37,032 bases of DNA from Nitrospiraceae bacterium (GTDB lineage Bacteria; Nitrospirota; Nitrospiria; Nitrospirales; Nitrospiraceae): contig JABFSG010000036.1 in the NCBI GenBank assembly GCA_013140715.1, positions 1 through 37,032 on the forward strand. The letters run 5' to 3'. The position numbers and the translations under genes were made by a program. Positions within the stretch are counted from its first letter, which is position 1. The number at the start of each line of letters is the position of its first letter. The notes below the pieces were generated by a model. That model was not told where the DNA came from. It searched no databases and saw nothing but the letters and a program-made list of their open reading frames with translations. Below, one piece after another: positions 11,587 to 36,796 of the stretch.

Positions 11587-11919
11587 TGGTCCCCCTCCTA
11601 TGTTGTTACCTCGCTAATTCAGGGCATTTGCAACCACTTAAAAAAACACCGTTTTGCTGCCTAGCTCGCACCAGACTCTAGGGTTTGCCCCACTTCTGTA
11701 GGGGGAGACATATAGGGCTAGCGTGGGTAAGGTAGTTTGTAAGCAATGCCTGTGGCGAGGACCCAATAGGGTCATGTCCTCACAGGGTACTGAGAGAATA
11801 TCGGCGATCCGATTGCAGCTCAGATGATAGGTGAAAGGTGCCGGGTTTTTGCGGCAAGCCGGGTGTCGCTGGGTATGCAATATTGCTTTAGCGGATCACT
11901 CAGTTCTTCGGAATGCACA
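11587..11919 (+). promoter_or_regulatory. Leader region upstream of the first GT4 gene
   Basis: About 330 bp with no supported gene. It holds a dyad GCCCCACTTCTGTAGGGGG at 11687-11705 that resembles sites at 25800-25835. Two mutually exclusive hairpins share bases 11760-11762: GAGGAC 11757-11762 with GTCCTC 11776-11781, and GACCC 11760-11764 with GGGTC 11769-11773 (AATA loop). There is no T-tract after them. The last ~95 bp could be coding if the next gene starts at ATG 11824 rather than 11920. Confidence 0.4.
11687..11705. promoter_or_regulatory. Dyad motif of the CCCYACTTYTGYWGGG type (possible operator)
   Basis: The core 16-mer at 11688-11703 reads CCCCACTTCTGTAGGG: CCC pairs with GGG and AC with GT around a four-base centre. 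It matches a 16-mer at 25800-25815 at 11 positions, the others mostly being C/T changes. A two-fold symmetric site of this size would suit a dimeric regulator such as a LuxR/NarL-type response regulator, which is an inference. Confidence 0.35.
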
Positions 11920-13182
11920 ATGCCAAGTATGTCCTTTCCAATCAGTTCCGAGGCAAGTGGAACTTTTGTGACATCGGTCACTGGGCGCCGGCCAAAAGTT
12001 CTACATCTTATCAACCATTTTCAGTTGGGTGGTACCGAACGTCAGGCAGTGCTGCTGTTGCAACACCTTGACCGGAACCGGTACGACGTTTGTCTCGCAG
12101 CTTTGAGCACAGCCGGGCCGTTATTCGAAGGGGTCGCGCGAATCTATCCGGATGTAGAGGAGTATCCCCTGACGTCGTTCTATAACTACAACGCGCTAAA
12201 GCAGGTAATCAGGCTTCGTAGGTTTCTACGAAAGAATGATATTCGAATAGTTCATACCCATGAATTTTGGTCAGGTGTATTGGCTGTGATCGCAGCAAGG
12301 TTCACGGACACACAGGTAATTGCAAGTCAGCGTCACCTGCGTATGTCGGATCGGCTGGCGCATCTTTGGGGGCGGCGGGTTCTCAATGCTGTTGCGGATC
12401 GAATCCTTGTGAATGCAGATGCGATTCGAAAACAGATCTTGGAAACTTCGTGGGTGACTCCAACCAAGGTGGTGGTGGTTAGGAATGGCTTGGCTCATGT
12501 GCAGGATGAAACCCGTGAAGCAGCATCGAGCAGCAGCATCGCGTGCGATGAGGGAGAGCAAGGTGTCAGGCTCAGACATCGTTCGGCACGCACTGCGCTG
12601 ATCAATGCACTCGGGATTTCGGATACATCGATCATTGTGGGAACGGTTGCCAACCTTCGTCCCGTCAAGGGGCATCGATATCTCATTGATGCCGCAGCTC
12701 ATGTCCTCCAAGCATGTCCCAATGTGCATTTTGTCTTTATCGGCGAAGGGGAGTTGCGCAATGCGCTTGAAGGGCAGGCCAAAGATCTGGGAATTGCCGA
12801 CCACGTCCATTTTATAGGCCATCGGGAGGACGCTCGATTTCTTACCTCCGGATTTGATCTAGCTGTGCTGGCGTCGTTGCATGAGGGCATGCCGAACACG
12901 GTTCTTGAGGCCATGGCTGCAGGGGTGCCTGTTGTCGCCACGGCAGTAGGCGGGGTGACGGAGATTATCGTAGACAAAGAAACCGGCTTCCTCGTTCCTC
13001 CAGGTGATACGGCTGCCATGGCCCATTGTCTTAGATATGTACTTGGGCAGGATCATCTTCGAATGGCTATCGGTATGAGCGGCTACCGATTCGTTTGTCG
13101 CACCTTCGGCGTAGAACGAATGGTCTCATCGGTACAGAGCCTCTATGACGAATTGCTGAACGTAGGCGGCCATCGCTCTTGA
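11920..13182 (+). CDS. Family 4 glycosyltransferase (GT-B fold)
   Basis: A retaining GT-B enzyme of about 420 aa that extends the lipid-linked repeat. The N-terminal acceptor domain begins KVLHLINHFQLGGTERQAV, the usual GT4 opening with a G-G-x-E/R turn. The C-terminal donor domain has GTVANLRPVKGH and the EX7E motif in EGMPNTVLEAMAAGVPVVAT. The start is uncertain: ATG 11824 gives 452 aa, but its first 50 residues are Cys-rich and unlike the family, and no candidate has a good ribosome binding site. ATG 11920 leaves 26 residues before the conserved core. It resembles the PEP-CTERM/EpsH-associated sugar transferases that usually occur in pairs. Confidence 0.87.
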   Translation: MPSMSFPISSEASGTFVTSVTGRRPKVLHLINHFQLGGTERQAVLLLQHLDRNRYDVCLAALSTAGPLFEGVARIYPDVEEYPLTSFYNYNALKQVIRLRRFLRKNDIRIVHTHEFWSGVLAVIAARFTDTQVIASQRHLRMSDRLAHLWGRRVLNAVADRILVNADAIRKQILETSWVTPTKVVVVRNGLAHVQDETREAASSSSIACDEGEQGVRLRHRSARTALINALGISDTSIIVGTVANLRPVKGHRYLIDAAAHVLQACPNVHFVFIGEGELRNALEGQAKDLGIADHVHFIGHREDARFLTSGFDLAVLASLHEGMPNTVLEAMAAGVPVVATAVGGVTEIIVDKETGFLVPPGDTAAMAHCLRYVLGQDHLRMAIGMSGYRFVCRTFGVERMVSSVQSLYDELLNVGGHRS

Positions 13183-18611: not shown

Positions 18612-19873
18612 TGCGCATCTTGTGGTTGAAGACGGAACTCCTCCATCCAGTCGATAAGGGAGGGAAGATTCGAACCTATCAGATGCTCAAGGAGATGAAG
18701 CGGCAGCATCATCTTACGTATCTGACTCTCGATGAGGCGCCTGAGGATCGGGCTTCCCATGAACAGGCGCATGAATATTGCCATGAACTCATCTGCGTGC
18801 CGCACCGAACGGAAGACAAGTTTACGGCCAGATTCTATGGCGAACTTGCGCTAAACTTCGTTTCTCCGCTCCCCTACTTCATTCAGAAGTATCGTTCTGC
18901 TGCGATGGCTCGGATGCTCAAGTCCGTTCTGCGTGAGCAGAAGCCGGATCTGCTGGTCTGTGATTTTCTCCATCCCAGTGTGAATCTGCCGGACGCGATG
19001 CCGTGTCCCTCTCTGTTGTTCCAGCACAATGTCGAGGCGATGATCTGGCAGCGTCACTACGAAGAGCAGACGAATCCATTGAAGAAAGCCTACCTGTGCA
19101 ACCAGTGGAAAAAGACGCAGCAATACGAGAAGGCTGCCTGTCACCGGTTCGATCGCGTGGTGGCGGTCTCAGTCGATGACGGCGAGACGATGAAAAGGGA
19201 GTATGGTCTGTCCGATGTGTCGGATATTCCAACAGGAGTCGATACCGCATACTTTCAGCGCAACCCAGCGATTTCAGCAGAGCCTCACCATCTGGTGTTC
19301 ACAGGTTCGATGGACTGGCTCCCCAACGAAGACGCGATCCTATATTTTGCAGAGCAGATACTGCCTCGTATCAAAAACATTCTTCCCGATATCAGGTTGA
19401 CGATTGTCGGGCGTAGTCCGTCTCCTCGTGTGTTTCAGCTCAGCCGTCAAGAGTCCGGCATCACCATCACCGGACGTGTCGAGGATGTGCGGCCTTACAT
19501 GCAACGGGCCGGCGCATATATCGTTCCGATACGCATTGGCGGCGGCACGAGGCTCAAAGTGTATGAAGCCATGGCGATGGAAATGCCCGTCGTTTCGACC
19601 AGGGTCGGCGCCGAAGGTCTTCCGGTTCTCCATGGAGAACATCTGTTGTTCGCCGATACGCCAGAAGACTTTGCTACAGCCGTCATCCGCATCTTGACCG
19701 ATGCCGATCTCGCTCGTGCGTTGGGTGAGAAAGCCTCCGCCACGGTACGAGAACGCTATGGCTGGGGCAATGTGGCGACGAAGTTTTCTCTCATTTGCCA
19801 GGATGTTCTCCGGGAATGGCATGAGCAGAAGGAGAAGGACGGAAGATCGTGGCGTCTCGACGCCATTGCATGA
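18611..19873 (+). CDS. Family 4 glycosyltransferase, exosortase/EpsH-associated type
   Basis: A GT-B enzyme of 420 aa. The N-terminus, ILWLKTELLHPVDKGGKIRTY, matches the family signature in which a hydrophobic strand is followed by P-x-DKG-x-KIR. The donor domain has FTGSMDWLPNEDA, GRVEDVRPYM and the conserved PIRIGGGTRLKVYEAMAME with the EX-type catalytic glutamates, then VSTRVGAEGL. This is the pattern of the PEP-CTERM/EpsH1 sugar transferase 1 family. The start ATG 18611 overlaps the stop of the upstream amidotransferase gene; a longer in-frame reading to 18518 lies inside that gene and is rejected. Confidence 0.9.
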   Translation: MRILWLKTELLHPVDKGGKIRTYQMLKEMKRQHHLTYLTLDEAPEDRASHEQAHEYCHELICVPHRTEDKFTARFYGELALNFVSPLPYFIQKYRSAAMARMLKSVLREQKPDLLVCDFLHPSVNLPDAMPCPSLLFQHNVEAMIWQRHYEEQTNPLKKAYLCNQWKKTQQYEKAACHRFDRVVAVSVDDGETMKREYGLSDVSDIPTGVDTAYFQRNPAISAEPHHLVFTGSMDWLPNEDAILYFAEQILPRIKNILPDIRLTIVGRSPSPRVFQLSRQESGITITGRVEDVRPYMQRAGAYIVPIRIGGGTRLKVYEAMAMEMPVVSTRVGAEGLPVLHGEHLLFADTPEDFATAVIRILTDADLARALGEKASATVRERYGWGNVATKFSLICQDVLREWHEQKEKDGRSWRLDAIA

Positions 19874-19916
19874 TCGGACACTGTGTCGAAAGAAATATGC
19901 TGAAAGAGGTGCATAT

Positions 19917-20696
19917 ATGAAAACGCTCGTTATTTGTCACGATGGCGCTGCTTTGGATAAGGAAGGGCTGGCGCGATGGCTGGCCTCGTTTTCTGAAGTG
20001 GTAGGATTGGTTGTCTTGCGTGAGACAGGTAAACGCGCTCGTCGACGAGTCTCCACAGAGATCAAGCGCGTGGGGCCTCTGCGATTTCTCGATGTGCTGG
20101 CCTTTCGCGCGTACTACCGCCTCGTATTGGCGGAGAACGATCGCCGCTGGGAAAATCATAAACTTGAGGAGTTGCGCGCGAGTTATCCGGCGCTCAAGGA
20201 TGTTCCAATCTTGATGACGCATTCTCCGAACTCTGAAGAGGCCGAACGGTTCATCAAGGAGCGGCGTCCGGATATCATGATTGCCCGGTGCAAGTCGTTG
20301 CTCAAGGAAACGATCTTTTCAATTCCCACAAAAGGCACGTACGTCATGCATCCGGGGATTTGCCCTGAATATCGGAACGCGCACGGTTGTTTCTGGGCCC
20401 TGGCAAACGGCGATCGTGATCGAGTCGGTATGACACTGCTGCGGATCGACAAAGGCGTGGATACGGGGCCGGTGTTCGGCTTCTACTACTATTCCGGCGA
20501 CGACAGAAACGATTCGCATATCGTCATCCAGCATCGCGTGGTAGTGGATAACTTGGCGTCGATAGGGAAGAAACTGCAAGAGATTTTTCTCGGGGAGGCG
20601 ATTCCCATCGATACGAAAGGCAGGCATTCGGCAGTATGGGGACAGCCCTGGTTGACCAAATACATGGCATGGAAGGCGAGGGCGCGGCGTGGCTAG
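19917..20696 (+). CDS. Formyltransferase-fold protein, possible sugar N-formyltransferase, lacking the catalytic Asn
   Basis: A 259-aa protein with the methionyl-tRNA/GAR formyltransferase hydrolase-like domain. The core reads VMHPGICPEYRNAHGCFWALANGD, then GMTLLRIDKGVDTGPVF, which aligns with HPSLLPxxRGAxPxxxAI and the D-x-G loop of the family. His145 and Asp182 occupy catalytic positions, 37 residues apart as expected. The catalytic Asn two residues before the His is replaced by Val143. Related proteins in O-antigen clusters N-formylate amino sugars with N10-formyl-THF; with Val here, activity or substrate may differ. ATG 19917 has GAGGTG seven bases upstream; longer in-frame starts lie in the previous gene. 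The stop is overlapped by the next gene. Confidence 0.82.
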   Translation: MKTLVICHDGAALDKEGLARWLASFSEVVGLVVLRETGKRARRRVSTEIKRVGPLRFLDVLAFRAYYRLVLAENDRRWENHKLEELRASYPALKDVPILMTHSPNSEEAERFIKERRPDIMIARCKSLLKETIFSIPTKGTYVMHPGICPEYRNAHGCFWALANGDRDRVGMTLLRIDKGVDTGPVFGFYYYSGDDRNDSHIVIQHRVVVDNLASIGKKLQEIFLGEAIPIDTKGRHSAVWGQPWLTKYMAWKARARRG

Positions 20697-23017: not shown

Positions 23018-24292
23018 ATGAACAGATCATTCGATTTGCCCGGCGTTTCGTCTGATTTGCTGAATACGGCTGACCGTGCGGTCGTTTCGTCAAGTCAAGA
23101 ATCTGTTGGAATGAGCTTCCGTTCCGACGAAATAACCGCAACGGTTCTCACCCAAGGTCCCGAGTTCGATGCCATTTGCGAAGAATGGGATCAGCTCGTG
23201 TCTGAGAGTTGTCAGCAGGGAGTCTTTTTCCTGCGTTGGCACTGGAACCGTCTTTGGTGGAGGATGTATGCCCCGTCTGGCAGCGAATTATTTTTGATCG
23301 TGTGTCGCGGCACGAGCGGCCGGTTGGTAGGGGTCGCGCCACTTTATCGGCATTCCCGAAAGGTGCTGGGTGTGCTCAGTCTGTACGAAGTCTGTTTTCT
23401 GGGCACCGGCACCGCGCTGAAGTCCAGTGAACATCTCGACATCATCGCCTTGCGCGGATACGAAATGTTCGTTGGAGAGGCTGTGGCAAAGTGTATTCGT
23501 CAGCAATCGACGTGGCATCGCATTTGGCTATGGGGCATTCATGCGACCTCTCCCGTTCTTCCGCATTTTGCGAAGGCGTTTGGCGCTGAAGCGACAGTGA
23601 ACTCCTGTGACAGGCTCCCGTACATATCCACCGATGTGGATTGGGCCGCGGTGAAGCTGGGGTTCGGATCTAACTTGCGGACGAACATCGATCGATATAT
23701 CCGTCGGATTGAAAAGCAGTACAAGTGCAGATTCGTCCGTGTCGAAACATCGGAGCAGGTCGATGAATTTATGGAGGCGTTCGTTCGCTTGCACCAGGAG
23801 CGGTGGCTGTCTAAAGGGGAACGTGGGTCATTTGCATTCCATGGATTCAAGGATTTCATGGACGAGACATTGCGCGAGGCCTTTCGCTGTCATCGAGCCA
23901 GACTCTGGATGTTATTCTTGGACGGTCAATGCGTGGCCACATTACAGGCATTTCTAGATCGCGGTGTGGCGCACTATTTTCAAGGGGGATTTGCTTCCGG
24001 ATATGAAAAGTATCACCTGGGGAGCGTCATGCTTGCTCGCTCCATACAAGATTGCATCGAGGCCGATGATGTGGATCAGTTCGATTTCATGGGCGGAGGC
24101 GCTTCGTACAAGGAGTCCTGGACGACCAGTGCTCATGACGCGGTCGAAGTAGAAATCCTAACCCCTGGCTGGGTTCCCGGGATGTACAAATACAGCTGCC
24201 GAGCCAAGACTCAGCTGTCAAGCCTCTATCGATCTCTGTTGCCGGTCGCGCTTCGATCTGCCGTCAGGAAGTACCTTGTTCCTTCGTCTTAG
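23018..24292 (+). CDS. BioF2/CelD-type GNAT acetyltransferase (FemAB-like)
   Basis: A 424-aa protein of the GNAT superfamily with the BioF2-like acetyltransferase domain found in many EPS loci. A first lobe covers about 45-195 (WDQLVSES.., FFLRWHWNRLWWRMY). The second lobe has the family landmarks RTNIDRYIRRIEK, LHQERWLSKGE, LFLDGQCVATLQAF, YFQGGFASGYEKYHLGSVMLARSI and FDFMGGGASYKESW. Such proteins are presumed to acylate sugars or peptides. There is no signal peptide. It begins a group of accessory genes after a 106-bp gap with repeats. The acyl donor and acceptor are unknown. Confidence 0.8.
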   Translation: MNRSFDLPGVSSDLLNTADRAVVSSSQESVGMSFRSDEITATVLTQGPEFDAICEEWDQLVSESCQQGVFFLRWHWNRLWWRMYAPSGSELFLIVCRGTSGRLVGVAPLYRHSRKVLGVLSLYEVCFLGTGTALKSSEHLDIIALRGYEMFVGEAVAKCIRQQSTWHRIWLWGIHATSPVLPHFAKAFGAEATVNSCDRLPYISTDVDWAAVKLGFGSNLRTNIDRYIRRIEKQYKCRFVRVETSEQVDEFMEAFVRLHQERWLSKGERGSFAFHGFKDFMDETLREAFRCHRARLWMLFLDGQCVATLQAFLDRGVAHYFQGGFASGYEKYHLGSVMLARSIQDCIEADDVDQFDFMGGGASYKESWTTSAHDAVEVEILTPGWVPGMYKYSCRAKTQLSSLYRSLLPVALRSAVRKYLVPSS

Positions 24293-25917: not shown

Positions 25918-27366
25918 ATGCAAAGTTCATTGAAGGTAACGCGGAGTATCGTGCACTGTCTGAGCATGCTTGCCCTTTTGAATCTCGCTGCCTGTGGATC
26001 TGGCGCTGATCCTTCTTCTGGCACCACCACGCCGCGTGCGTTTCTTTCTGACTCCAACGTGCATATGCCGCCCATGAGCGGGCAGTTTGCGTATAACACA
26101 TGGAAACCGGGCGCTGCTGGTTTCCCAAAGGTTGGCGAGACGTATACCGATCCGGTATTCGGCGGAACTGTTCGACGATTGACCGACAGAGTGGGGCTTC
26201 GCAATCAGGAAGATATCTATGCTCACCATTGGGCCAATGCCAATGGGACGCTCTGCTTCTCACGCATAGTAGACCCGATTACAAATAATAATGTCGGGCG
26301 AATCCTCAGTATCGCTACTGGGCAGGTCGTCTATGACGATCAACCAGGAATGGGCGGGCTAATGGCTTCGGATATTGCTTGGGACGCAATGGATCCAAAT
26401 GTGTATTACTATTACAACGGTGCCAGTCTCATCCGTCGTAATTTAGGGACCAAGCCTGTTCCCACCGATACGGTCATAAAGACCTTTCCCTTCCTTCTCA
26501 GGCCCAACGGAGGGTCACTGAACTCGCAGGATCGGACTGGTCGGTACTTTACTGTGCGGTACGGGCTCACTAACGGCCCTGGTGAAGTAGGCACTAATAA
26601 AATATGGGACAGCCAAACACCCGACAACCCCAATACTCCAAATGACGAGAGTATCTATTCTGGTGAAGTGACACCCTTGAGTACCGGTGGATGGGTGGCG
26701 ATCACGCCCGATGGCAATTATCTTGTCACGGCGGCGGGGCCTGGGGTATCGCCCCAGATCGAGCATTGGTCCTACAAGATCGACCACGCAACGCAGGCCA
26801 TCCTCCCCACGCCGACGCAATTCTGGGGCCTCTGCGGGGACCATGGGGTCTTGATCTCAGCATCTAATGGAAAGAACTATTTCATTACGCACAGCTGTAA
26901 TTCTACTGGTGCAAACACGGCTGACGCGGGCACCTATCGAGTCGATATTACTCTGGATCAGTCTAAGGACACCACAGGAGCTCAACAAATTGCTGCTAAC
27001 CAACTGCTGGTTCCTGGGGTGTTTCTCAAAACTGTGGATGGGCATTTTTCTGCTGTGTCGAAGGGACCTAATCAAGATTGGGTATTTGCCGACTATGAAA
27101 CATTTGTTGATGATCCCTTCAATGGGACCCCATCAGGCTGGGTTCCTTACGAGCAAGAAATTGTCGCAATCAATGTAATTACGTTGGAAGTGCGTCGGTA
27201 TGCCCACCATAGATCGCAAGGGCTTGTGGCAAATGTTAGCGATAACTACTATGCTCAGCCACGGATCTCATGTTCCTGGGATGGCTCAGTCGTGTTATGG
27301 ACCAGTAACTTCAATATCGCTTCTCCGGTTGGCTATTCAGACCTCTACGCAATGCCGTTCCAGTAA
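25918..27366 (+). CDS. Secreted lipoprotein, likely beta-propeller, paralogue of the convergent gene
   Basis: A 482-aa protein with a lipoprotein signal peptide: hydrophobic stretch about 8-22, lipobox L-A-A-C with Cys26, then CGSG and a low-complexity linker. The mature part is rich in short beta-strand repeats (VRRLTDRV.., YAHHWANANGTLCFSR, GGWVAITPDGNYLVTAAG, WGLCGDHGVLISASNG, YYAQPRISCSWDGSVVLWTSN), with the ITPDGNY and SWDGS patterns of TolB/WD-like propellers. No catalytic motif is recognised. Its paralogue is the minus-strand gene at 27458-28837, and the two converge with 91 bp between. Anchoring to the outer membrane and a role in polysaccharide binding or surface assembly are inferences. 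The upstream region carries dyads and a palindrome. Confidence 0.8.
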   Translation: MQSSLKVTRSIVHCLSMLALLNLAACGSGADPSSGTTTPRAFLSDSNVHMPPMSGQFAYNTWKPGAAGFPKVGETYTDPVFGGTVRRLTDRVGLRNQEDIYAHHWANANGTLCFSRIVDPITNNNVGRILSIATGQVVYDDQPGMGGLMASDIAWDAMDPNVYYYYNGASLIRRNLGTKPVPTDTVIKTFPFLLRPNGGSLNSQDRTGRYFTVRYGLTNGPGEVGTNKIWDSQTPDNPNTPNDESIYSGEVTPLSTGGWVAITPDGNYLVTAAGPGVSPQIEHWSYKIDHATQAILPTPTQFWGLCGDHGVLISASNGKNYFITHSCNSTGANTADAGTYRVDITLDQSKDTTGAQQIAANQLLVPGVFLKTVDGHFSAVSKGPNQDWVFADYETFVDDPFNGTPSGWVPYEQEIVAINVITLEVRRYAHHRSQGLVANVSDNYYAQPRISCSWDGSVVLWTSNFNIASPVGYSDLYAMPFQ

Positions 27367-27457: not shown

Positions 27458-28837
27458 TCAGTTGACGATACTCAATCCTGTCGGTGCGTTCGGTGGGGTG
27501 GTGTCTACCGGTGGCCCGGGGGGTGGTCCAGTCGGTGATCCGGTGGGGTTGAATCCTATGGCGTAGGTGTCGACATAATCTTTCGGTGAACTGACGCCCA
27601 TATTACTCTGCCAGACGATGATCGATCCGTCCCATGAAGAGCTGATATGGGGTTGTGCGTAATAACTGCTCGATAAATTTCTGCTTCGGTGATGGGCTAA
27701 TCTGCGGACTTCACCGGTCACGATGTTCATCGCGATGATCTCCTGTTTCCAGGCAGTCCAGCCAGTGACACCACCATTAAATGGGTCGCCATTTAAATTT
27801 TCAGTATCCAGAAATACCCAATCTTTGAGCGCTCCACGCATATTGCCGGTCAGGTGGCCGTCGTTGTTCTCCCAGGCCAAAGGAACCAGCCGCTTATTCG
27901 CTGCGAGTTGCTGATCTTCCGTCTTTCCCGCTTGATTCAGTGCGATGTCGGCTCGCCAGACACCGGGGTTATTCTGACAATCGTAGGTGATGAAATAGCT
28001 GTGCCCGTCGCTTGCGCTGGCAATGACGCCGTGATCGCCGCAGAGACCCCAGAATTGCACTGGCATTGTGGTAACTGTCGCTGTCGCATGATTAATCGCA
28101 TAGGACCAATGTTCTTTTTGAGGCGGGGCTGTGCCGCCTGCCGCTGTCACAATATAGTTTCCATCCGGTGTGATGGAGATCCAACCGCCATTCGTCGTGA
28201 AATTTACTGTTTCACCTGCATAGAGGGTGTTCGTCGATCGTTTCCATATATGTCCCCGGCCATTCCATGAGAAGACATAGATGTCGCCGCTTCCATCGAC
28301 CCAGGGGAGCGATCCCCCGAAATTATCGAAGTTTGCGGGAGCCGTAAAGATGGTCACATCGGTCTGTGTCGGGAGATGTCTCTCGACTATCTTGTTTGTT
28401 TCAAACCGCTGATATCTGCTTGGGTCTATCGGATGCCATTGGAGATTTGCCCGTGGCAGGTCGCCGTGGCCAACCGGCTGATTCGTAAATTGGACGGCTC
28501 CCGTAACAGGGCTATAAATATCTAACCCTCCACCGTTTGTCGTGAAACAGCTTGTTCCATTGGCGTTACACCAATGGTGAGCGTAAATATCGTCGTCATT
28601 TGCAGTCAATCCTACATCCGTGACACGGCGAACCGTCTCGCCGAACACGGGGTCCACATAGGTGCCGCCCAGCGCTGGGAAAGCAGCGACGCCGGGTTTG
28701 AAGGTATTGTAGGCATGGGTCCCACTGGTGGGTGGAGGATGCGGAACCGAGTCTATGACCGCGGCATGGGTTGGTACCGTGATAGTGGAGAGCAGTCCCA
28801 CGAGACCGAGAATAGTCCATTGCCGTCGACGCGTCAT
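27458..28837 (-). CDS. Secreted paralogue of the lipoprotein, likely beta-propeller with a truncated C-terminal linker
   Basis: A 459-aa exported protein. Start ATG (28835-28837 on the complement) is preceded by a very strong ribosome binding site, GGAGGAGGT, six bases away; the longer reading to 28957 lacks this. A signal peptide of about 25 residues begins MTRRRQWTILGLVGLL and ends THA-AV. The body repeats the same landmarks as its neighbour: VRRVTD, YAHHWCNANGTSCF, ITPDGNYIVTAAGG, WGLCGDHGVIASASDG, VRRLAHHRS and SSWDGSIIVWQSN. It ends in a Pro/Gly-rich linker and DTTPPNAPTGLSIVN, the usual opening of a fibronectin type III domain, which then stops. It is not a lipoprotein, unlike its paralogue. 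Confidence 0.8.
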   Translation of the reverse strand: MTRRRQWTILGLVGLLSTITVPTHAAVIDSVPHPPPTSGTHAYNTFKPGVAAFPALGGTYVDPVFGETVRRVTDVGLTANDDDIYAHHWCNANGTSCFTTNGGGLDIYSPVTGAVQFTNQPVGHGDLPRANLQWHPIDPSRYQRFETNKIVERHLPTQTDVTIFTAPANFDNFGGSLPWVDGSGDIYVFSWNGRGHIWKRSTNTLYAGETVNFTTNGGWISITPDGNYIVTAAGGTAPPQKEHWSYAINHATATVTTMPVQFWGLCGDHGVIASASDGHSYFITYDCQNNPGVWRADIALNQAGKTEDQQLAANKRLVPLAWENNDGHLTGNMRGALKDWVFLDTENLNGDPFNGGVTGWTAWKQEIIAMNIVTGEVRRLAHHRSRNLSSSYYAQPHISSSWDGSIIVWQSNMGVSSPKDYVDTYAIGFNPTGSPTGPPPGPPVDTTPPNAPTGLSIVN

Positions 28838-29343
28838 AAGATGACCTCCTCCACAAGCTAGTAAGGCCACTCTAGTTGTAGCCGTTCTAGAGATCCTGCA
28901 AAGATTTTGCTGGATGAAAGTTCTTGTTATCTGGACCATGGGCAGAGACCTACGCAAAACCGATGCCGCCTCTACCTTGTGCCGCGCCTGGCCGCATCAG
29001 GCAGGATTGAAAGATGTCAGGCGTATATTCGTAACATATTGATTCTCAAAGAGGCAGAAATAACAAATGAGATTGCAAAGTGCGATTTTTGTGAAAGAAT
29101 TCATTTATTCGTAGCTGAAAAGTAAAAAGCGCATCATTTTTCAGAACTCTAGAATCTGAAGGATTATCCATTCAAGAAGATGCTGCTTGTAGTGGCTTGA
29201 CCGATAACTTTCAAGCCATTTGAAAATATCGAGGGATTCTATAACGGCGGAATTTAAGTGGCGCGGGATTTGTGGCCAGCGGTCTCTACTGAATCAGGCG
29301 AAGTCCAGCTGCTGCATTGGACGGCCAGAATAGGGAATGCACC
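28838..29343. promoter_or_regulatory. 506-bp divergent intergenic region with an inverted repeat
   Basis: It separates the minus-strand secreted gene from the plus-strand acetyltransferase module and should hold promoters for both. The open frames here start with TTG, lack ribosome binding sites and have no family features. The clearest element is a perfect eight-bp inverted repeat, TGGCTTGA (29193-29200) with TCAAGCCA (29211-29218), ten bases apart. The stretch around 29030-29160 is visibly AT-rich compared with the genes. Confidence 0.4.
29193..29218. repeat. Perfect eight-bp inverted repeat, possible operator
   Basis: TGGCTTGA and TCAAGCCA are separated by CCGATAACTT. No T-tract follows. 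It lies 126 bp before the acetyltransferase start and is the strongest dyad in this intergenic region. Confidence 0.35.
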
Positions 29344-30456
29344 GTGAAATTGACTGTTCGTCTGCTGCAGTGGAGGGATCTTACTCCAAGCCGGCTGTCG
29401 GCGTGGGCCGATCTCGAATCGCGCGCGATCGATCCGAATGCCTATCTTTCGCCCCACTTTGTGCTGCCGGCCCAGCGCTATCTCTCCGGTCATACTGAGC
29501 CGATTATCATGTGGATTGAGGAGGAGGGGACAGCGGGCCATGAGCTGATGGGTGTGGGTATTTTTGAAATGGCGCAAGCAACGCGTCGTTTTCCCTTCGC
29601 ACATCTGCGCGCGTTCCGTTCGCGACATTCCTACCTGTCCGGACTGCTTCTCGATTCCACTGCGGCAAGGGAGGCGATTGAGGCCTGGATTGCCTATTGC
29701 CGGGGCAAGGCATTTCAGTGGCATGGTATCGATTTTGGGTGCTGGCCTGCGGACGGGAAAAGTGAGCAACTTGTGCGTAGTATCGCACCGCAACATGGCG
29801 CCACCTGGCAGGAGTATGAGCGCATGCCGCGCGCAGTACTATATCCGCAACAGGCGGGTGAGTCTTACGTTGAGTCGCATTTGAGTACGCACCGTCGTAA
29901 GGACCTTCGGCGGTGCATGAGGCGATTGGGAGAAATCGGCCCTGTGGCCTGGACTTTCTTACAGGGCACTACGTTTGATGAGGCATGCGTGGATCGCTTT
30001 CTCGAGCTTGAGCAGGCAGGCTGGAAGGGTGAGCAAGGAGACGCGCTTATTTCGGATGGCCGTGATGAGCAATTTTTTAGAGAAATGGTGCGTGGGTTTG
30101 CCGGAGCTGGCCGGGCCATTTTCACCGAGCTACGAGTCGGTGAGAGGGTTGTGTCCTCTACCTGCAACTTCGTTTCGGGCCGTGCCTGTTTTGCGTTCAA
30201 GATCGGTTGGCATCGCGATTTCGCCAAAATGTCGCCGGGAATCCTGAATGAGGTCGAGTTGATGCGCCAAGCTCCATCAATGTCCAAGGATCTCGATTTT
30301 TTCGATAGCGGGGCTAGCCAGGGCTCCTACATCGATGAGCTGTGGGGCGAGCGCCGCCAGCTGAGTAACGCTATTCTTGTCACAACCCCTGCAGGCCGCG
30401 CCATGCTCGGCGCTATCGATTTGGGAAGACAGGTAAAGCGTCGGCTGCTTGGTTAG
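29344..30456 (+). CDS. BioF2-type GNAT acetyltransferase
   Basis: A 370-aa GNAT-superfamily protein with the BioF2-like domain. The landmarks are STHRRKDLRRCMRRLGE (basic helix), FLELEQAGWKGEQGDAL, ELRVGERVVSSTCNFVSGRACFAFKIGWHRDFAKMSPGILNEVELMRQ and LDFFDSGASQGSYIDELWGERR. The layout is the same as in the acetyltransferase at 23018-24292, but the sequences have diverged widely. GTG 29344 has AGGGA seven bases upstream; a TTG at 29317 extends the frame but is unlikely. It heads the decorating module, with no signal peptide. The substrate is unknown. Confidence 0.8.
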   Translation: MKLTVRLLQWRDLTPSRLSAWADLESRAIDPNAYLSPHFVLPAQRYLSGHTEPIIMWIEEEGTAGHELMGVGIFEMAQATRRFPFAHLRAFRSRHSYLSGLLLDSTAAREAIEAWIAYCRGKAFQWHGIDFGCWPADGKSEQLVRSIAPQHGATWQEYERMPRAVLYPQQAGESYVESHLSTHRRKDLRRCMRRLGEIGPVAWTFLQGTTFDEACVDRFLELEQAGWKGEQGDALISDGRDEQFFREMVRGFAGAGRAIFTELRVGERVVSSTCNFVSGRACFAFKIGWHRDFAKMSPGILNEVELMRQAPSMSKDLDFFDSGASQGSYIDELWGERRQLSNAILVTTPAGRAMLGAIDLGRQVKRRLLG

Positions 30457-30541
30457 GGGTGGTGGGACCGGCAGGCAGTGAGTATGTTGAGCCCGAATAG
30501 TCGAACCTCCCAGCCCATAGAATATGCAGTGCCGGAGAGAT

Positions 30542-31207
30542 ATGAGATTTCCTGACGCGGTGCAATCGTTAGTCAGTCGAGCGTATCGCTATGTGTGTAG
30601 GCCAGGGCCGGTACGGACTCTCGAATTGGCATATGTAATTCTTCCGAGTGACGAAGCTCATAACTACATGAGCAAGCTGGAAATAGAAATCTTGAAACTA
30701 TATGGGCCCCATGAAGGGCTTAAGGCGACTCCGCACATTACGCTCAAGTTGGGGTTTCGCGTGCCGGATATCCAGCCCTTTGAGAAATACTTTGACCAGC
30801 TTGTAGCCGACATTGAACCCTTTGAGATCTGCATCAAGAACATTGGATTCTTCGATGAAATGGGGATCGTCTTCATGGATGTGGTGCATACCGCAGAGCT
30901 CGAAAACCTGCGACAGCGAATTCTTCGCGAGCTGTCGGATCGGTATGGCATCAAACCCTATCCACTGGAAGGCGATCAGTATCACTTTCATGCCACGTTG
31001 GCCTATTTGCAAAAGGAAGATTTTCCCAAGGTGCGTCACGAGCTTGAGAATGTAAATATAGAGTTTAAGTTTATGTTGGATGCCATTGGACTCATTTGTC
31101 ATACAGGTGATGAGTGGGTCACATACAAGCGAGCGAGATTAATGCAGCCAGCGGCGAGTCTTCGTGCATGCACGGAATCTGTGCACAGTCTGGAATCGTT
31201 CCTGTAA
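30542..31207 (+). CDS. 2H phosphoesterase family protein (2'-5' RNA ligase/cyclic phosphodiesterase-like)
   Basis: A 221-aa protein with the two H-x-T motifs that define the 2H superfamily: PHITLKLGF (H65, T67) and FHATLAYL (H150, T152), 85 residues apart, each on a beta-strand of a two-lobed fold. Members hydrolyse or form 2',3'-cyclic or 2'-5' phosphodiesters. Here the neighbours are sugar-modifying genes, so a cyclic-phosphate sugar intermediate is possible but unproven. ATG 30542 has GGAG four bases upstream; ATG 30524 is less likely. The C-terminal 25 residues after VTYKRARL are extra and low in family similarity. Confidence 0.83.
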   Translation: MRFPDAVQSLVSRAYRYVCRPGPVRTLELAYVILPSDEAHNYMSKLEIEILKLYGPHEGLKATPHITLKLGFRVPDIQPFEKYFDQLVADIEPFEICIKNIGFFDEMGIVFMDVVHTAELENLRQRILRELSDRYGIKPYPLEGDQYHFHATLAYLQKEDFPKVRHELENVNIEFKFMLDAIGLICHTGDEWVTYKRARLMQPAASLRACTESVHSLESFL

Positions 31208-31274
31208 CGATAGTGATCCGTCTATTTGGTCTGCCGTTATCGGGAATGAGTGGTGAGAAGGGGTAGGAAATCCT

Positions 31275-32804
31275 ATGGGTACGCAGGGCGATTACAGTCC
31301 TCAAGCGCTGGAAATGCTGCAGTTCCGTCGGCAGTTTTTCTTAGGTCCAGAATTTATCAAGGAATTCCCTGCGTGGACCAGAAAGAACGTTGGGGCAGTA
31401 TTTTGTCTGACCGTCCATCCCGAGCTGGAGATCTGCCAGGCTACGAACGAGAACAAGTCAGTCACCTTGCTAGGGTATATTTTAGATCCGAATAATCCTC
31501 AGGCCGGCAACTCAGATGTATTAGGCGGTCTGGTACGTAAACTCGATAGATGCGATGACTTTTGGAAGTTCACCAGCGACTTCGGTGGTCGATGGATACT
31601 TATCGTAGACGACGGCCAAGAAACCATACTCTTTACTGACGCGGCAGGATTGCGAAGTGTGTATTACGCGCAGTCCGCATCTTTAAAGAAAACATTCTGT
31701 GGATCTCAGCCAGGTTTGATCGCAAAGACCCTGAATCTGTCTATGGACGAGGAAGCGTTGGAGTATGTCGATTCACGGGAACTCGCGGACAGTGAGGTGT
31801 ATTGGCTGCCCGGCGATGCTTCGATGTATCGGGACATAAAAGCGTTGCTGCCGAACCACTACTTGAATATGCGAACCGGGCGATCGCATCGATTCTGGCC
31901 CGATGCGGACTTGAAAGGCATGTCCCGTCAAGAGGCGGTGGCGGAGTGTTCACGGCTATTGAGCGGATTGATGGTGAGCGCCAGACAGAGATTCGGCTTA
32001 GCCTTGTCATTGACTGCCGGATGGGATAGCCGGGTGATGCTGGCACTCAGTAGGGACATAGCCCGCGATCTGTACTGTTTTACCTTGGCGTATCCTGATA
32101 CCGAACAGACAAGAGACGTCACCATTCCTGCTGAATTGCTCAAGAAGCTGGGGTTGAAGCATTCCCTCTTAAAATATCCCGAACATGTCGAGCCGGATTT
32201 CAAGGCTATCTATCAAGCGAACATCGACGCAGTAAACAAGTCCTATTGCGCCGACGCGCAAGCCATGTACGATCGCTATCCCCAAGGTCTGGTCTGCATC
32301 ACTGGTGATGTCGCTGAAATCGTCAAGTGTTACTATCGGCTTGCGGAACACAGAAGCAGCAATGTCTCCGCCAGAGATCTAGCGGAGCTGTGCGGAATTG
32401 GAACCCATCCATTTCTCATGCAAGCTTTCGATAGGTGGTTGTCAGCCACTGACTCGCGAAACGTTCATCTGCTGGATCTGTTCTGTTGGGAACAAATAGC
32501 GGGAAGAAAGCAGGCGCTAATTCGCGCGCAATTTGACATTGCCCACGAGTCTTTTGCTCCGTTCAGTTGTAGAAGTCTGCTTACGACGATGCTCTCGGTC
32601 GATGAGGATTACAGACGACCGCCGGAGCACAAGTTTCTCAGAGAGCTGATCGAACTGTTTTGGTTCGAGGTATTACGCCTGCCGATAAACCCTCCCGAAA
32701 AGATACGCGCGAAGAATCTCGTTATCGGTACTCTCAAAAAACTGCATCTCTATCAATTAGTTCCCGAATCGGCAAAGAGACTCGGAAAACGTGTCGTGAA
32801 GTGA
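31275..32804 (+). CDS. Asparagine-synthase-like protein with degenerate glutaminase domain
   Basis: A 509-aa homologue of class II amidotransferases that has lost key residues. The N-terminus begins MGTQGDYSP with no Cys2, and the glutaminase domain is reduced to strands such as GGRWILIVDDGQETILFTDAAGLRSVYYA. The synthetase domain keeps the position of the PP-loop but reads TAGWDS at 247-252 in place of SGGxDS. Asp251 and Ser252 are retained, followed by RVMLALSRD. Glutamine hydrolysis is therefore not expected; ammonia or another nucleophile may be used, or the protein may adenylate a carboxylate. Lasso-peptide cyclases also lack the Cys, but no precursor, RRE or protease gene is nearby. Confidence 0.8.
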   Translation: MGTQGDYSPQALEMLQFRRQFFLGPEFIKEFPAWTRKNVGAVFCLTVHPELEICQATNENKSVTLLGYILDPNNPQAGNSDVLGGLVRKLDRCDDFWKFTSDFGGRWILIVDDGQETILFTDAAGLRSVYYAQSASLKKTFCGSQPGLIAKTLNLSMDEEALEYVDSRELADSEVYWLPGDASMYRDIKALLPNHYLNMRTGRSHRFWPDADLKGMSRQEAVAECSRLLSGLMVSARQRFGLALSLTAGWDSRVMLALSRDIARDLYCFTLAYPDTEQTRDVTIPAELLKKLGLKHSLLKYPEHVEPDFKAIYQANIDAVNKSYCADAQAMYDRYPQGLVCITGDVAEIVKCYYRLAEHRSSNVSARDLAELCGIGTHPFLMQAFDRWLSATDSRNVHLLDLFCWEQIAGRKQALIRAQFDIAHESFAPFSCRSLLTTMLSVDEDYRRPPEHKFLRELIELFWFEVLRLPINPPEKIRAKNLVIGTLKKLHLYQLVPESAKRLGKRVVK

Positions 32805-32959
32805 TCGAAACGTCTGGTTGCGATCTCTTGTGAGGCGATGGCTTGCTGTCTTGCGCAAGTGATATGGAGAGGTCTTGGGAGACTGCAAACGGATAAAGCG
32901 GTTTGCTGAATACGTTCTATCGGCTGTGTGGCTCGTATGGATTGGAAATAGGAGTCTCG

Positions 32960-34033
32960 GTGATCAGCTTTATTAAACAAAAACTGTATCCCTCTGTATC
33001 CAAGTTTGTTTCACGCACAACGTTAGTGGAGGGTCGTTTGAAGGGGGGGAGCTCTTCCTTCAAATGTCTGGTTGTCGGAAATTCTCCTTTCACCGAGTAC
33101 TTGAAGGCGCGCATGTATGATGAGCCGCCCGTTGTTCTTCAACGAAGGCGCATCTGGATCCCCTCATTGAAAAAACTGCTTTGCAGCAAGACGGACACTT
33201 TCGATCTCTGTATTGCCGTCCTTCCAAAGGCCTATGAGTCAACCTTTCATGGTTTGTACGATTACAAGTGTACGGAAGAAGTCCAACAGGTTATTGATAC
33301 GTCAGGCTCATGGGAAGATGTCAGAAGCAGGTTCTCCAGTACAAAGCGCAAAGTAAGCAATAGAGTAACCGAACGATATGGTCTCGGGTATCGAATTTCC
33401 ACTGATGTGGAGGAGTTCGACTATTTTTACCATCGCATGTTCGTTCCCCATATCAAGAAGCGGTTCGGAGAGTTATCCGCTATCGACTCATATGACGAGA
33501 TGAAAGAGTTCTTCCTGAAGGGGCGGTTGTTGTTTGTGACCAAAGGTAGCGAGGCGGTTGCAGGAGCCCTTTCTCTAGTCGAGGATGGGACGCTGATATT
33601 TCGCCGAACCGGCGTTTTGGATGGGGATGAAACGCACATCGAAGGCGGCGGGCAGCAAGCATTGTATTATTTTCAGTTAAAGTACGCGAACGAGCACAAC
33701 CTTCGTGCCGTCGATACCATGATGAGTGCTCCTTTTCTGAATGATGGTGTGTATATCAATAAGAGAGAATGGGGCGCCACCGTGATGCCCGATACGAAGT
33801 CTCAAACCTGGGTCTATTTCTTTCATGCCACCCCTTCGGAAAAAACAGCCCGTTTTTTCGAGAACAACCCAACCATCGTTCATTCCGACAAGGGGTTGAA
33901 GGGGATAATCGGGGTTTCGAACGACATGGAGATTTCGATCGCGGCGATCAATGACTTGACTCGTCGATATCAAGCGAGGGGAATCGAAGGGTTTACGATA
34001 GTAACCCGAACCGGCGCATTGAGCGCTCCATAG
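32960..34033 (+). CDS. GNAT/FemAB-like acyltransferase of the EPS decorating module
   Basis: A protein of about 357 aa with a GNAT-type fold. Landmarks are SSTKRKVSNRVTERYGLGYRIS (basic helix before the second lobe), VEEFDYFYHRMFVPHIKKRFG, FVTKGSEAVAGALSLVEDGTLIFRRTGVLDG and GGQQALYYFQLKYANEHNLRAVDTMMSAPFLNDGVYINKREWGA. These correspond to the central beta-hairpin and the acceptor-side helix of FemAB/BioF2 proteins. GTG 32960 has TAGGAG five bases upstream; a TTG start at 32903 is less likely. It is the third member of this superfamily in the window and the most divergent. The function is presumed to be sugar or peptide acylation. Confidence 0.68.
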   Translation: MISFIKQKLYPSVSKFVSRTTLVEGRLKGGSSSFKCLVVGNSPFTEYLKARMYDEPPVVLQRRRIWIPSLKKLLCSKTDTFDLCIAVLPKAYESTFHGLYDYKCTEEVQQVIDTSGSWEDVRSRFSSTKRKVSNRVTERYGLGYRISTDVEEFDYFYHRMFVPHIKKRFGELSAIDSYDEMKEFFLKGRLLFVTKGSEAVAGALSLVEDGTLIFRRTGVLDGDETHIEGGGQQALYYFQLKYANEHNLRAVDTMMSAPFLNDGVYINKREWGATVMPDTKSQTWVYFFHATPSEKTARFFENNPTIVHSDKGLKGIIGVSNDMEISIAAINDLTRRYQARGIEGFTIVTRTGALSAP

Positions 34034-34114
34034 CCGGCAGCATGCCAGCAACGGGCGGAATCGGTCGCCCAATTCAGTCGCCAGGGATCAGGTGAATAAT
34101 TCGGAGGAAGTATT

Positions 34115-35125
34115 ATGCTGACTCAGAGCCTCCTGCGCTGGTCATTGCGCTCGGCAAGGGCTGTCAAGGCAAAGGCCATGTCGAGCCAAACTCTCTCCAG
34201 CCTGTTTTATGACTATGACAATGTCGGAGAGTTTAGTGACTTGTTTGAACATGAAAAAATGTTGGCGGATTCTGTTCGCGTCGATACCTATGCGGCGGCG
34301 ATCCGCAGGCATATTAAGGCGGGCGATGTCGTCATCGATCTTGGAACAGGAACTGGAATATTGGCAATCCTTGCCGCTCGCCAGGGTGCAACGGTCTATG
34401 CCATCGACCACTCAGACTTTATCAATATTGCGGAGCAGATCGCCAAGAATAACGGCGTGAGCAATATCCAGTTTCTGAAAGTGAACAGCCGGGACTTCGC
34501 CTGCCCGGAGAAAGTGGACTACATTCTTCACGAGCAGATCGGAGACGATCTGTTTGATGAGAACATGATCTTCAATCTGCTGGATTTGAAGCAGCGTGCG
34601 ATGAAGGACACTGGGACCATTTTCCCAGGGCGTTTTGAGTTGTTCCTGGAACCGGTGGCCTTGACTAGAGCGTACCGCGTTCCCTTCATTTGGGAGACAT
34701 CAATACAGGGAATAGATTACGGGTTTATTAAAAACCATCCCGGCATTGAAAAGTATAAAAGGGCGAGCTATGCGAGTCGTTATGTCGATCAGGCTGCCTT
34801 CGATCATTTTCTGTCGGAGCCCGCGCCCGTTCTTTCGGTGGACTTGAACAGCATAAAAGGGCCGGATTCGATAGCGACCCGGTTCTCTGTCTCCCGGCGT
34901 GTTATTCATGCGGGCAGAATGGAAGGACTCTATTTGTTTTTTCGGGCAGTCTTCGATGAGGAGTGCCACTTCGATACTGCTCCGCAGCATACTCATACTA
35001 GTTGGGGGAATCGGCTGTTACGTTGCGCCCATCATGACTATGCCGCAGGGGATACCATTTCGTTTCAAGTGGAAATTGGGGATATTCGTTTTGTCGATAC
35101 ATGGTCCTGCACCTTCAACCACTAA
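34115..35125 (+). CDS. PRMT-like SAM-dependent methyltransferase with intact double-E loop
   Basis: A 336-aa class I methyltransferase. The SAM site is VIDLGTGTGILAILAA (D75, G77, G79, G81), with acidic D near AIDHSD. Then comes HEQIGDDLFDENM, which carries two Glu, E140 and E149, nine residues apart, as in the double-E loop of protein arginine methyltransferases (SEWMGYxLFYESM). A beta-barrel half follows, and HTSWGNRLL at 294-302 matches the THW loop with His replaced by Ser (T295, S296, W297). GGAGGA lies 8 bases before ATG. Bacterial PRMT-like proteins are uncommon; here the neighbours suggest a sugar or guanidino-type acceptor, or a cell-surface protein. It could be a distant sugar methyltransferase. 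Confidence 0.8.
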   Translation: MLTQSLLRWSLRSARAVKAKAMSSQTLSSLFYDYDNVGEFSDLFEHEKMLADSVRVDTYAAAIRRHIKAGDVVIDLGTGTGILAILAARQGATVYAIDHSDFINIAEQIAKNNGVSNIQFLKVNSRDFACPEKVDYILHEQIGDDLFDENMIFNLLDLKQRAMKDTGTIFPGRFELFLEPVALTRAYRVPFIWETSIQGIDYGFIKNHPGIEKYKRASYASRYVDQAAFDHFLSEPAPVLSVDLNSIKGPDSIATRFSVSRRVIHAGRMEGLYLFFRAVFDEECHFDTAPQHTHTSWGNRLLRCAHHDYAAGDTISFQVEIGDIRFVDTWSCTFNH

Positions 35126-35470
35126 TTGAGTGGGATATTCAGCAAGAGGTCAAGAAAACCAGCCCCGTCGGCCCCACACAGAATAGAAAAAGTCGGTGGG
35201 AGCAGGGAAGTTCTGGCGCCTTTTCCCGCGAAACAGACCATTTTTCTGATGTCTCGTCAGCGCCGATCTGTTTGCAAGGGGACTCGCGCGGTGGACCGTT
35301 AGAGCGACTGTCTGAGGAAGCAGTCGTTTGTAATGGGTTTCAGAAACAAAATAAAAAGTTCGATGGAACATGTCTCCTGCCAGCAGAAAACTTCATACGT
35401 ATAATTTACTTAATTTATTGACGGAAGCCGGAGGCTCTGCCATTCTGACCGAAGCTTAAGGAGGAGACTC
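35126..35470 (+). promoter_or_regulatory. 345-bp intergenic region before the second nucleotide-sugar dehydrogenase
   Basis: No supported gene. It holds an imperfect terminator-like hairpin, CGACTG (35305-35310) with CAGTCG (35321-35326), followed by TTTGTAATGGGTTT, and an AT-rich stretch with a perfect TATAAT at 35400-35405. There is no good -35 hexamer at 17 or 18 bp. These suggest that transcription ends here and a new unit begins. Confidence 0.4.
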
Positions 35471-36796
35471 ATGGCTCAAAAGACTCAAAAAAAAGACACT
35501 CAAAAGAATGAGCGAGAACGAAAGGTCGCAATCGTTGGACTCGGTTACGTGGGTCTTCCCATTGCCGTGGCCTTCGGTAAGCGGGGGAAGGTCATCGGTT
35601 TCGATATCAATAGAGCAAAGATCGACGAACTGCTCGGGGGGCACGATCGAACGGGGGAAGTGTCGGCGGCCGATCTCAAAGCTTGCCAGGTGGAGTACAC
35701 GTCTGAGCCTACCGATCTCAAGGCAGCGGACTTCATCATCGTCGCTGTTCCAACTCCGATCAATGAATCGCTTCAGCCGGATCTCAAGGCTCTGCGGATG
35801 TCCTCGGAACTGATCGGTAAAAATTTGTCGCCTGGAACGATCGTGGTTTATGAATCGACGGTGTATCCGGGAGTCACAGAGGAAGTTTGTCTCCCTATTC
35901 TGGAGAAGTTTTCCGGCCTTAAGGCAGGAGTGGATTTCAAGGTTGGATATTCACCGGAGCGTATCAATCCAGGAGACAAGGAACATACCCTCGAAAAGAT
36001 CGTCAAAGTCGTTTCGGCTCAGGATGCGGAGTCGCTTGAAATCGTTGCACAGACATACGGCCTCATCATCAAGGCTGGGGTCCATCGGGCGTCCAGCATA
36101 AAGGTTGCGGAAGCAGCCAAGGTGATTGAGAACACGCAGCGCGATCTGAACATTGCGTTGATGAACGAGCTGGCTCTCATCTTCCATCGTCTCGGAATCG
36201 ATACCAAGTCGGTTCTCGACGCGGCCGGTACCAAGTGGAACTTTTTGAAGTTTTACCCGGGATTAGTCGGCGGACATTGCATTGGGGTGGATCCCTACTA
36301 TCTCACTGCAAAGGCGGAATCGGTAGGCTACCATCCCCAAGTGATTCTGGCTGGCCGACGGATCAACAACGGCATGGGAAAGTTTGTCGCAGAACAAACG
36401 ATGAAGCAGCTCAGTCAGCTCTCCAGCCCCGTCAAGGAGCTGAAGGTGGCGGTCTTAGGCCTCACCTTTAAGGAGAATGTGCCGGATTTGCGCAACAGTA
36501 AGGTGCCTGAAATCATTCAAGAGTTGCGTGAATATGGAGTTCAAGTGCTGGTGCATGATCCGATTGCAGAACCGGAAGAAGCGGTTGCTGAATATGGGAT
36601 TCACCTGCAGAAGTGGAGCGAGCTGGATAAGGTCGATGGGCTGGTCATTGCGGTCGCTCACCGTATGTATACGGAGATGGGGCTACAGGAATTGCTCAAG
36701 CCTCTCCGAAATCAGCAGGACGGGGTGGTGATCGATGTGAAGAGCCTGCTCGATCAGAGTAACCTTCCTAAGGCCCTTAAGTACTGGCGTCTGTAA
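35471..36796 (+). CDS. Nucleotide-sugar dehydrogenase, TviB/WbpO-like (UDP-HexNAc or UDP-glucose 6-dehydrogenase)
   Basis: A 441-aa NAD+-dependent dehydrogenase that oxidises a UDP-sugar to a uronate. It has the Rossmann start VAIVGLGYVGLPIAVAFGKRGKVIGFDIN, VAVPTPIN, VYESTVYPG, GYSPERINPGD, the central AKVIENTQRDLNIALMNE, and active-site GGHCIGVDPYYLT with Cys270. The second lobe has LGLTFKENVPDLRNSK. The VGLP start, the SPERINPGD stretch and GGHCIGVDPYYLT are typical of TviB/WbpO/CapL enzymes that make UDP-GalNAcA-type sugars, and differ from AlgD at 21598-22911. Specificity between UDP-GlcNAc, UDP-GalNAc and others cannot be fixed by sequence alone. TAAGGAGGAG ahead of ATG is a strong ribosome binding site. 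Confidence 0.88.
   Translation: MAQKTQKKDTQKNERERKVAIVGLGYVGLPIAVAFGKRGKVIGFDINRAKIDELLGGHDRTGEVSAADLKACQVEYTSEPTDLKAADFIIVAVPTPINESLQPDLKALRMSSELIGKNLSPGTIVVYESTVYPGVTEEVCLPILEKFSGLKAGVDFKVGYSPERINPGDKEHTLEKIVKVVSAQDAESLEIVAQTYGLIIKAGVHRASSIKVAEAAKVIENTQRDLNIALMNELALIFHRLGIDTKSVLDAAGTKWNFLKFYPGLVGGHCIGVDPYYLTAKAESVGYHPQVILAGRRINNGMGKFVAEQTMKQLSQLSSPVKELKVAVLGLTFKENVPDLRNSKVPEIIQELREYGVQVLVHDPIAEPEEAVAEYGIHLQKWSELDKVDGLVIAVAHRMYTEMGLQELLKPLRNQQDGVVIDVKSLLDQSNLPKALKYWRL

Follow-up and report, generated by a model that had tools for sequence, protein, structure and literature searches.

A PRMT-family protein in a bacterial EPS cluster as a candidate N-methyltransferase of polysaccharide tailoring

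Protein arginine methyltransferases (PRMTs) are usually regarded as eukaryotic protein modifiers. The motif set of the family includes motif I (VLDxGxGxG), post-I, motif II and motif III (LKxxGxxxP) (PMC12925635). Among bacterial enzymes, SznE/StzE of the streptozotocin pathway is an arginine-guanidino methyltransferase (PMC11705231), and PtmH (Cj1325) and ORF8 of L. pneumophila are N-methyltransferases whose acceptor is the acetamidino group of legionaminic acid, an amidine on a glycan (PMC3766260, PMC13306086). For HfsK, a FemX-like acyltransferase, a function in holdfast polysaccharide modification was inferred from indirect evidence (PMC5362036). In the open-access literature searched, we found no paper on a bacterial PRMT or on a PRMT connected with polysaccharide, and none on FemAB proteins in exosortase EPS clusters.

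The window, which is the whole stretch of 37,032 nucleotides from a Nitrospiraceae bacterium that was analysed here, contains an open reading frame of 336 amino acids whose ATG is preceded by CGGAGGAAG, a good ribosome-binding site (Table 1). Using phmmer against the PDB, PRMTs alone lead the list of matches, with an E-value of about 2e-21 (1.9e-21) and alignments that cover residues 26–297 or 26–316. A profile built from 43 relatives matches Arabidopsis PRMT10 (PDB entry 3r0q) at 1.6e-49, and the profile–PRMT alignment begins near residue 40, continues through the barrel of PRMT8 and PRMT10 and includes the dimerisation-arm region. The AlphaFold model (pLDDT 91, pTM 0.84) displays the PRMT fold, a Rossmann SAM domain followed by a β-barrel. 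In both Foldseek and VIA the top 50 PDB matches to this model are exclusively PRMTs (PRMT2, PRMT3, PRMT4, PRMT6, PRMT8 and PRMT1); the best Foldseek E-value is 9.1e-24 and the VIA superposition on PRMT2 aligns 301 residues (18–336) with a Z-score of 29.9 and an r.m.s.d. of 2.9. With PRMTs making up all of the top matches in both sequence and structure, the similarity is far beyond chance, and the protein almost certainly belongs to the PRMT superfamily, as the original prediction had proposed.

A sugar O-methyltransferase was ruled out, since the model retrieves only PRMTs in its structural top 50 and has only the SAM core in common with such enzymes; a better fit to this class had been named beforehand as a ground against the assignment, together with loss of the two loop glutamates, and neither was found. 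PrmA was likewise rejected, since its SAM core alone matches. Pfam and NCBIfam see only a generic SAM domain in the window protein, with Methyltransf_31 and PrmA as the best matches, which explains how HEQ-type proteins (defined below) can receive an L11 or class I methyltransferase annotation. The PRMT_C model (PF22528) does not match the window protein at E ≤ 1; 38 of the 43 relatives match it at E ≤ 0.1, the best at 2.7e-13. The N-terminal segment shows the highest helical hydrophobic moment of the protein, at residues 2–19, and a net charge of +4 (the family median is +3), which is suggestive of an N-terminal helix that might associate with the membrane.

Table 1. Positions of the PRMT gene, its motifs and neighbouring genes in the window.
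Feature	Position	Strand	Basis
Formyltransferase-like protein (ArnA/sugar-formyltransferase type)	19701..20696	+	PF00551 1.3e-8; ArnA-like 1.2e-10
FemAB-like Acetyltransf_6 protein	23018..24292	+	PF13480 3.3e-28
FemAB-like Acetyltransf_6 protein	29317..30456	+	PF13480 2.8e-21
2H phosphoesterase (2'-5' RNA ligase superfamily), co-located in genome G017	30524..31207	+	PF13563 1.7e-18
Asparagine-synthetase-like protein	31275..32804	+	Aligned with both intact AsnB proteins of the window; NCBIfam asn_synth 1e-4
FemAB-like (Acetyltransf_6) acyltransferase, divergent, directly upstream of the PRMT gene	32903..34033	+	PF13480 E 0.013, below cut-off
PRMT-family SAM-dependent N-methyltransferase (predicted), HEQ subfamily	34115..35125	+	phmmer, profile, AlphaFold model, Foldseek/VIA
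N-terminal basic amphipathic helix (residues 1–33)	34115..34213	+	Hydrophobic moment, charge
Motif I VIDLGTGTG (residues 73–81), predicted SAM binding	34331..34357	+	Homologue conservation
Double-E loop HEQIGDDLFDENM (residues 139–151; E140, E149)	34529..34567	+	Profile alignment to SEWMGxxLxxExM
PRMT β-barrel with dimerisation-arm region (residues about 172–336)	34628..35122	+	Alignment to PRMT8/PRMT10; PF22528 in relatives
THW-loop equivalent TSW (residues 295–297; H294 precedes)	34997..35005	+	Profile alignment to THW
Nucleotide-sugar dehydrogenase of the EPS cluster	35471..36796	+	PF03721/PF00984/PF03720

The motifs of the PRMT list (PMC12925635) occur in order as VIDLGTGTG, VYAID, KVDYI, the double-E loop, MKDTGTIFP and TSW. 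In motif I, Asp75, Gly77, Gly79 and Gly81 are kept in all 67 homologues with sequence there. The expected double-E loop is present: in the profile alignment Glu140 and Glu149 coincide exactly with both glutamates of the PRMT loop. Compared with SExMGxxLxxExM, both Glu residues, the Gly, the Leu and the last Met are retained, the first Ser is replaced by His and the first Met by Ile. Both glutamates are invariant (68/68 homologues), a count that is partly biased for Glu140 since some homologues were fetched with a pattern containing HEQ, and that is independent of the search patterns for Glu149, where many members carry EAM, EDM or EGM. They are also both kept in the HEQ-subfamily members from a whole-genome search that did not use the biased pattern.

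At the predicted THW-loop position (residues 295–297), Thr and Trp are retained, and Trp297 is found in 67/67 homologues with sequence there, but the middle residue is Ser296, so that the loop reads TSW and is not a strict THW. The relatives carry THW, PHW, TNW or TCW, mostly THW or PHW, and 54 of the 68 subfamily homologues have His in the middle. Ser296 resembles PRMT5, which also has Ser at this position. The YFxxY motif of type I PRMTs is missing and the corresponding stretch is NVGEF, of which Phe40, at the position of the last aromatic residue, is retained in 67/67 homologues with sequence there. Met49 is conserved and, as in type I enzymes, sits at the position of Met48 of PRMT1. Taken as a whole, the protein is very probably an active methyltransferase.

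In the subfamily, His stands in front of the first Glu where PRMTs have Ser, and Gln follows that Glu; in the window protein the THW His is in addition replaced by Ser, so the acceptor may differ from guanidinium. The HEQ and TSW variants, together with the polysaccharide deacetylases, formyltransferase and acyltransferases of the cluster, would suit a PRMT fold that has been turned to N-methylating a plain amine or an N-acyl/N-formyl amino sugar, or to O-methylation. We consider this highly improbable given that the guanidinium-binding Glu pair is invariant throughout the subfamily, whereas a separate Nitrospiria group has lost it. The five loci of that group read ADQIGEFGFDAGI (ADQIG...DAG) and lack both glutamates as well as the THW loop, which indicates that the Glu residues can be lost when not needed; from their sequences these proteins are possibly pseudo-PRMTs. 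As in PRMTs, the invariant Glu pair of the HEQ proteins points to an acceptor that is cationic and resembles guanidinium or amidinium.

In a quick tree of 104 PRMT-like proteins from bacteria and archaea, in which long branches are noted, the window protein falls in a 71-row clade (SH-aLRT 99) with the signature HEQ[IM]GD in place of SExMG. This HEQ subfamily is an uncharacterised prokaryotic PRMT branch that spans seven bacterial phyla (Nitrospirota, Bacteroidota, Balneolota, Pseudomonadota, Thermodesulfobacteriota, Actinomycetota and Verrucomicrobiota) and methanogens (Methanoculleus). Its distribution is patchy. PRMT_C domains occur in 15/295 genomes of the window's phylum, an underestimate since the window's own protein escapes this model, and in 0/14 controls, and the HEQ gene is found in 3/148 genomes of the Lunatibacter family and in 1/141 and 1/194 genomes of two other orders. 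These counts agree with the expectation that such enzymes are rare in bacteria, but Opitutaceae do not follow it, as about 30 of 120 of their genomes, roughly a quarter, carry the gene. The source genome has one clear PRMT-like gene. Genome contigs searched with the window protein alone gave no match, and an alignment as the query did find homologues; the viral contigs searched contained no PRMT relatives, and the plasmids searched contained only three distant ones, which carry the L11 methyltransferase (PrmA) name.

Other PRMT-like proteins were encountered alongside this subfamily. Sixteen loci, mostly from one genus of the window's order, form a PRMT group of their own, marked by TETMGTFGFEEGI and SHW, that is present in most searched genomes of that genus. 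Two loci encode bacterial PRMTs with the canonical SEWMGHCLFYEAM and THW, nearer to the eukaryotic type I loops. A Lunatibacter locus harbours tandem PRMT copies (9998–11038 and 11130–12170), the second with QEQ for HEQ and TVW for THW, and in a genome of the Lunatibacter family a degraded PRMT-like copy contains four in-frame stops.

The PRMT gene lies within a run of same-strand genes (29317–36796) of an EPS cluster that encodes a bacterial sugar transferase, glycosyltransferases, Wzx/Wzy-like proteins, polysaccharide deacetylases, two AsnB, a heparinase-like protein and nucleotide-sugar dehydrogenases. The FemAB-like gene directly upstream supports the predicted location beside acyltransferases; its product and the two clear Acetyltransf_6 proteins of the window served as seeds for a FemAB-like HMM. 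The degenerate amidotransferase that had been noted next to it is also present: the asparagine-synthetase-like protein lacks the catalytic Cys2 (its N-terminus reads Met-Gly) and retains the PP-loop SLTAGWDSR, a sequence that would possibly suit an ammonia- or amine-using ligase. As a general amidine-forming partner of the PRMT this protein was rejected, since its gene adjoins the PRMT gene only in the window and in G017. The window yielded neither an amidinotransferase nor a known amidine-forming gene, which speaks against an amidino acceptor. Two similar WD40-like proteins, probably secreted, are encoded in opposite orientation (25918–27366, +, and 27458–28957, −) between the EPS genes.

The gene order FemAB-like, 2H phosphoesterase, AsnB-like, FemAB-like, PRMT is the same in G017 as in the window. 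In three further genomes the PRMT gene lies in different EPS clusters with FemAB-like proteins 2–5 kb away, and all orthologues from the window's order except one are in polysaccharide clusters. A FemAB-like gene lies within 5 kb of the PRMT gene at 8/21 TxW-group loci versus 0/45 PHW-group loci, counts in which some loci end at contig edges. These neighbours are spread over five phyla, being found in Nitrospirota, Geobacteraceae (a Geobacter MAG), Balneolaceae, Gammaproteobacteria and Cyclobacteriaceae, with Acetyltransf_6 confirmed using Pfam outside Nitrospirota, and the trait requires only four changes on the 71-row tree. In one Cyclobacteriaceae genome a homologue of the formyltransferase-like gene begins 37 bp downstream of the PRMT gene, which is surrounded by five FemAB-like paralogues. 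At two Cyclobacteriaceae loci, five or six FemAB-like (Acetyltransf_6) paralogues surround one PRMT gene. Since EPS clusters often contain FemAB-like proteins, their presence near the PRMT is no proof of coupling.

The original prediction had suggested a surface protein, a guanidino sugar or a peptide as the target. A true protein arginine methyltransferase acting on a cell or surface protein, with an EPS location that is incidental or regulatory, would be compatible with the retained PRMT fold and main motifs. The lone genes in about a quarter of the Opitutaceae suit such a pathway-independent protein modifier. The gene is a solitary one in Opitutae, methanogens and Acidimicrobiia, where its loci have no FemAB-like or EPS neighbours and no widely conserved neighbour, and its ancestral substrate may therefore have had nothing to do with EPS. 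That a stand-alone gene in many lineages fits a protein target equally is the main weakness of the EPS reading. Nevertheless, we regard a protein target as unlikely, given that the gene repeatedly occurs near FemAB-like acyltransferases in the polysaccharide clusters of five phyla and that no candidate protein substrate was identified. As the HEQ branch is found beside presumed sugar-polymer decorators in these phyla, it may methylate a nitrogen-rich polymer group and not a protein.

Free arginine or an agmatine-type guanidino compound would be another acceptor, methylated as by SznE (PMC11705231) and then attached by a FemAB-like enzyme. Besides the FemAB neighbours, this agrees with the case of saskemycin, which has N-methylagmatine and a SznE-like gene that lies beside glycosyl- and amidinotransferases (PMC12637814). 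It appears distinctly unlikely, however, since neither an amidinotransferase nor an aminoacyl-carrier gene was found next to the PRMT gene and most homologues are not housed in biosynthetic clusters.

The invariant Glu pair and the precedents of HfsK, PtmH/ORF8 and SznE lead us to prefer N-methylation of a glycan- or amino-acid-linked guanidino or amidino group during EPS assembly. SAM would be bound at motif I, the double-E Glu pair would grip a cationic nitrogen of guanidinium- or amidinium-like type and activate it, and the TSW loop together with the barrel would form the acceptor side. A glycan precursor or an amino-acid substituent could supply the acceptor in the form of a planar nitrogen group, be it guanidino, amidino or an acylated amine, and the enzyme would act in polysaccharide tailoring alongside the cluster's FemAB-like acyltransferases, polysaccharide deacetylases and formyltransferase. 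A role in EPS tailoring in this organism is probable. That the acceptor is a guanidino or amidino group belonging to a glycan or a small molecule, and not to a protein, is a more tentative proposal, which we hold with slightly less than even confidence. For the complete proposal, in which an active N-methyltransferase of PRMT type has been recruited to polysaccharide tailoring and its acceptor is guanidino- or amidino-like, we see the chances as balanced. Its extension to the HEQ subfamily, as N-methylating a glycan guanidino/amidino group in concert with FemAB-like acyltransferases, is conceivable but rather doubtful.

If true, arginine-type methylation chemistry would be applied to a sugar polymer. 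An intact guanidinium site combined with repeated placement in polysaccharide clusters would widen the known scope of the PRMT family, and the HEQ subfamily suggests that bacterial matrix polymers may carry N-methylated groups that have escaped recognition. Automatic annotation as L11 methyltransferase or class I SAM methyltransferase hides such prokaryotic PRMTs.

Of the known systems, PrmA (ribosomal protein L11 methyltransferase) has the class I SAM-binding core in common with the window protein, which it matches at residues 62–138 only, and to our knowledge has no PRMT barrel or double-E loop. The type I PRMTs (PRMT1/2/3/4/6/8 and plant PRMT10) have motif I, post-I, motif III, the double-E Glu pair and the barrel in common with the window protein. 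They are about 23–25% identical to it and carry SExMG, THW and YFxxY, whereas the window protein, which is prokaryotic and in an EPS context, has HEQ[IM]GD and TSW and no YFxxY. PtmH and ORF8 are alike in the reaction described; they act on CMP-legionaminic acid, for which no pathway was seen in the window. SznE/StzE, also likened to the window protein by the reaction described, performs bacterial small-molecule guanidino N-methylation in another pathway context.
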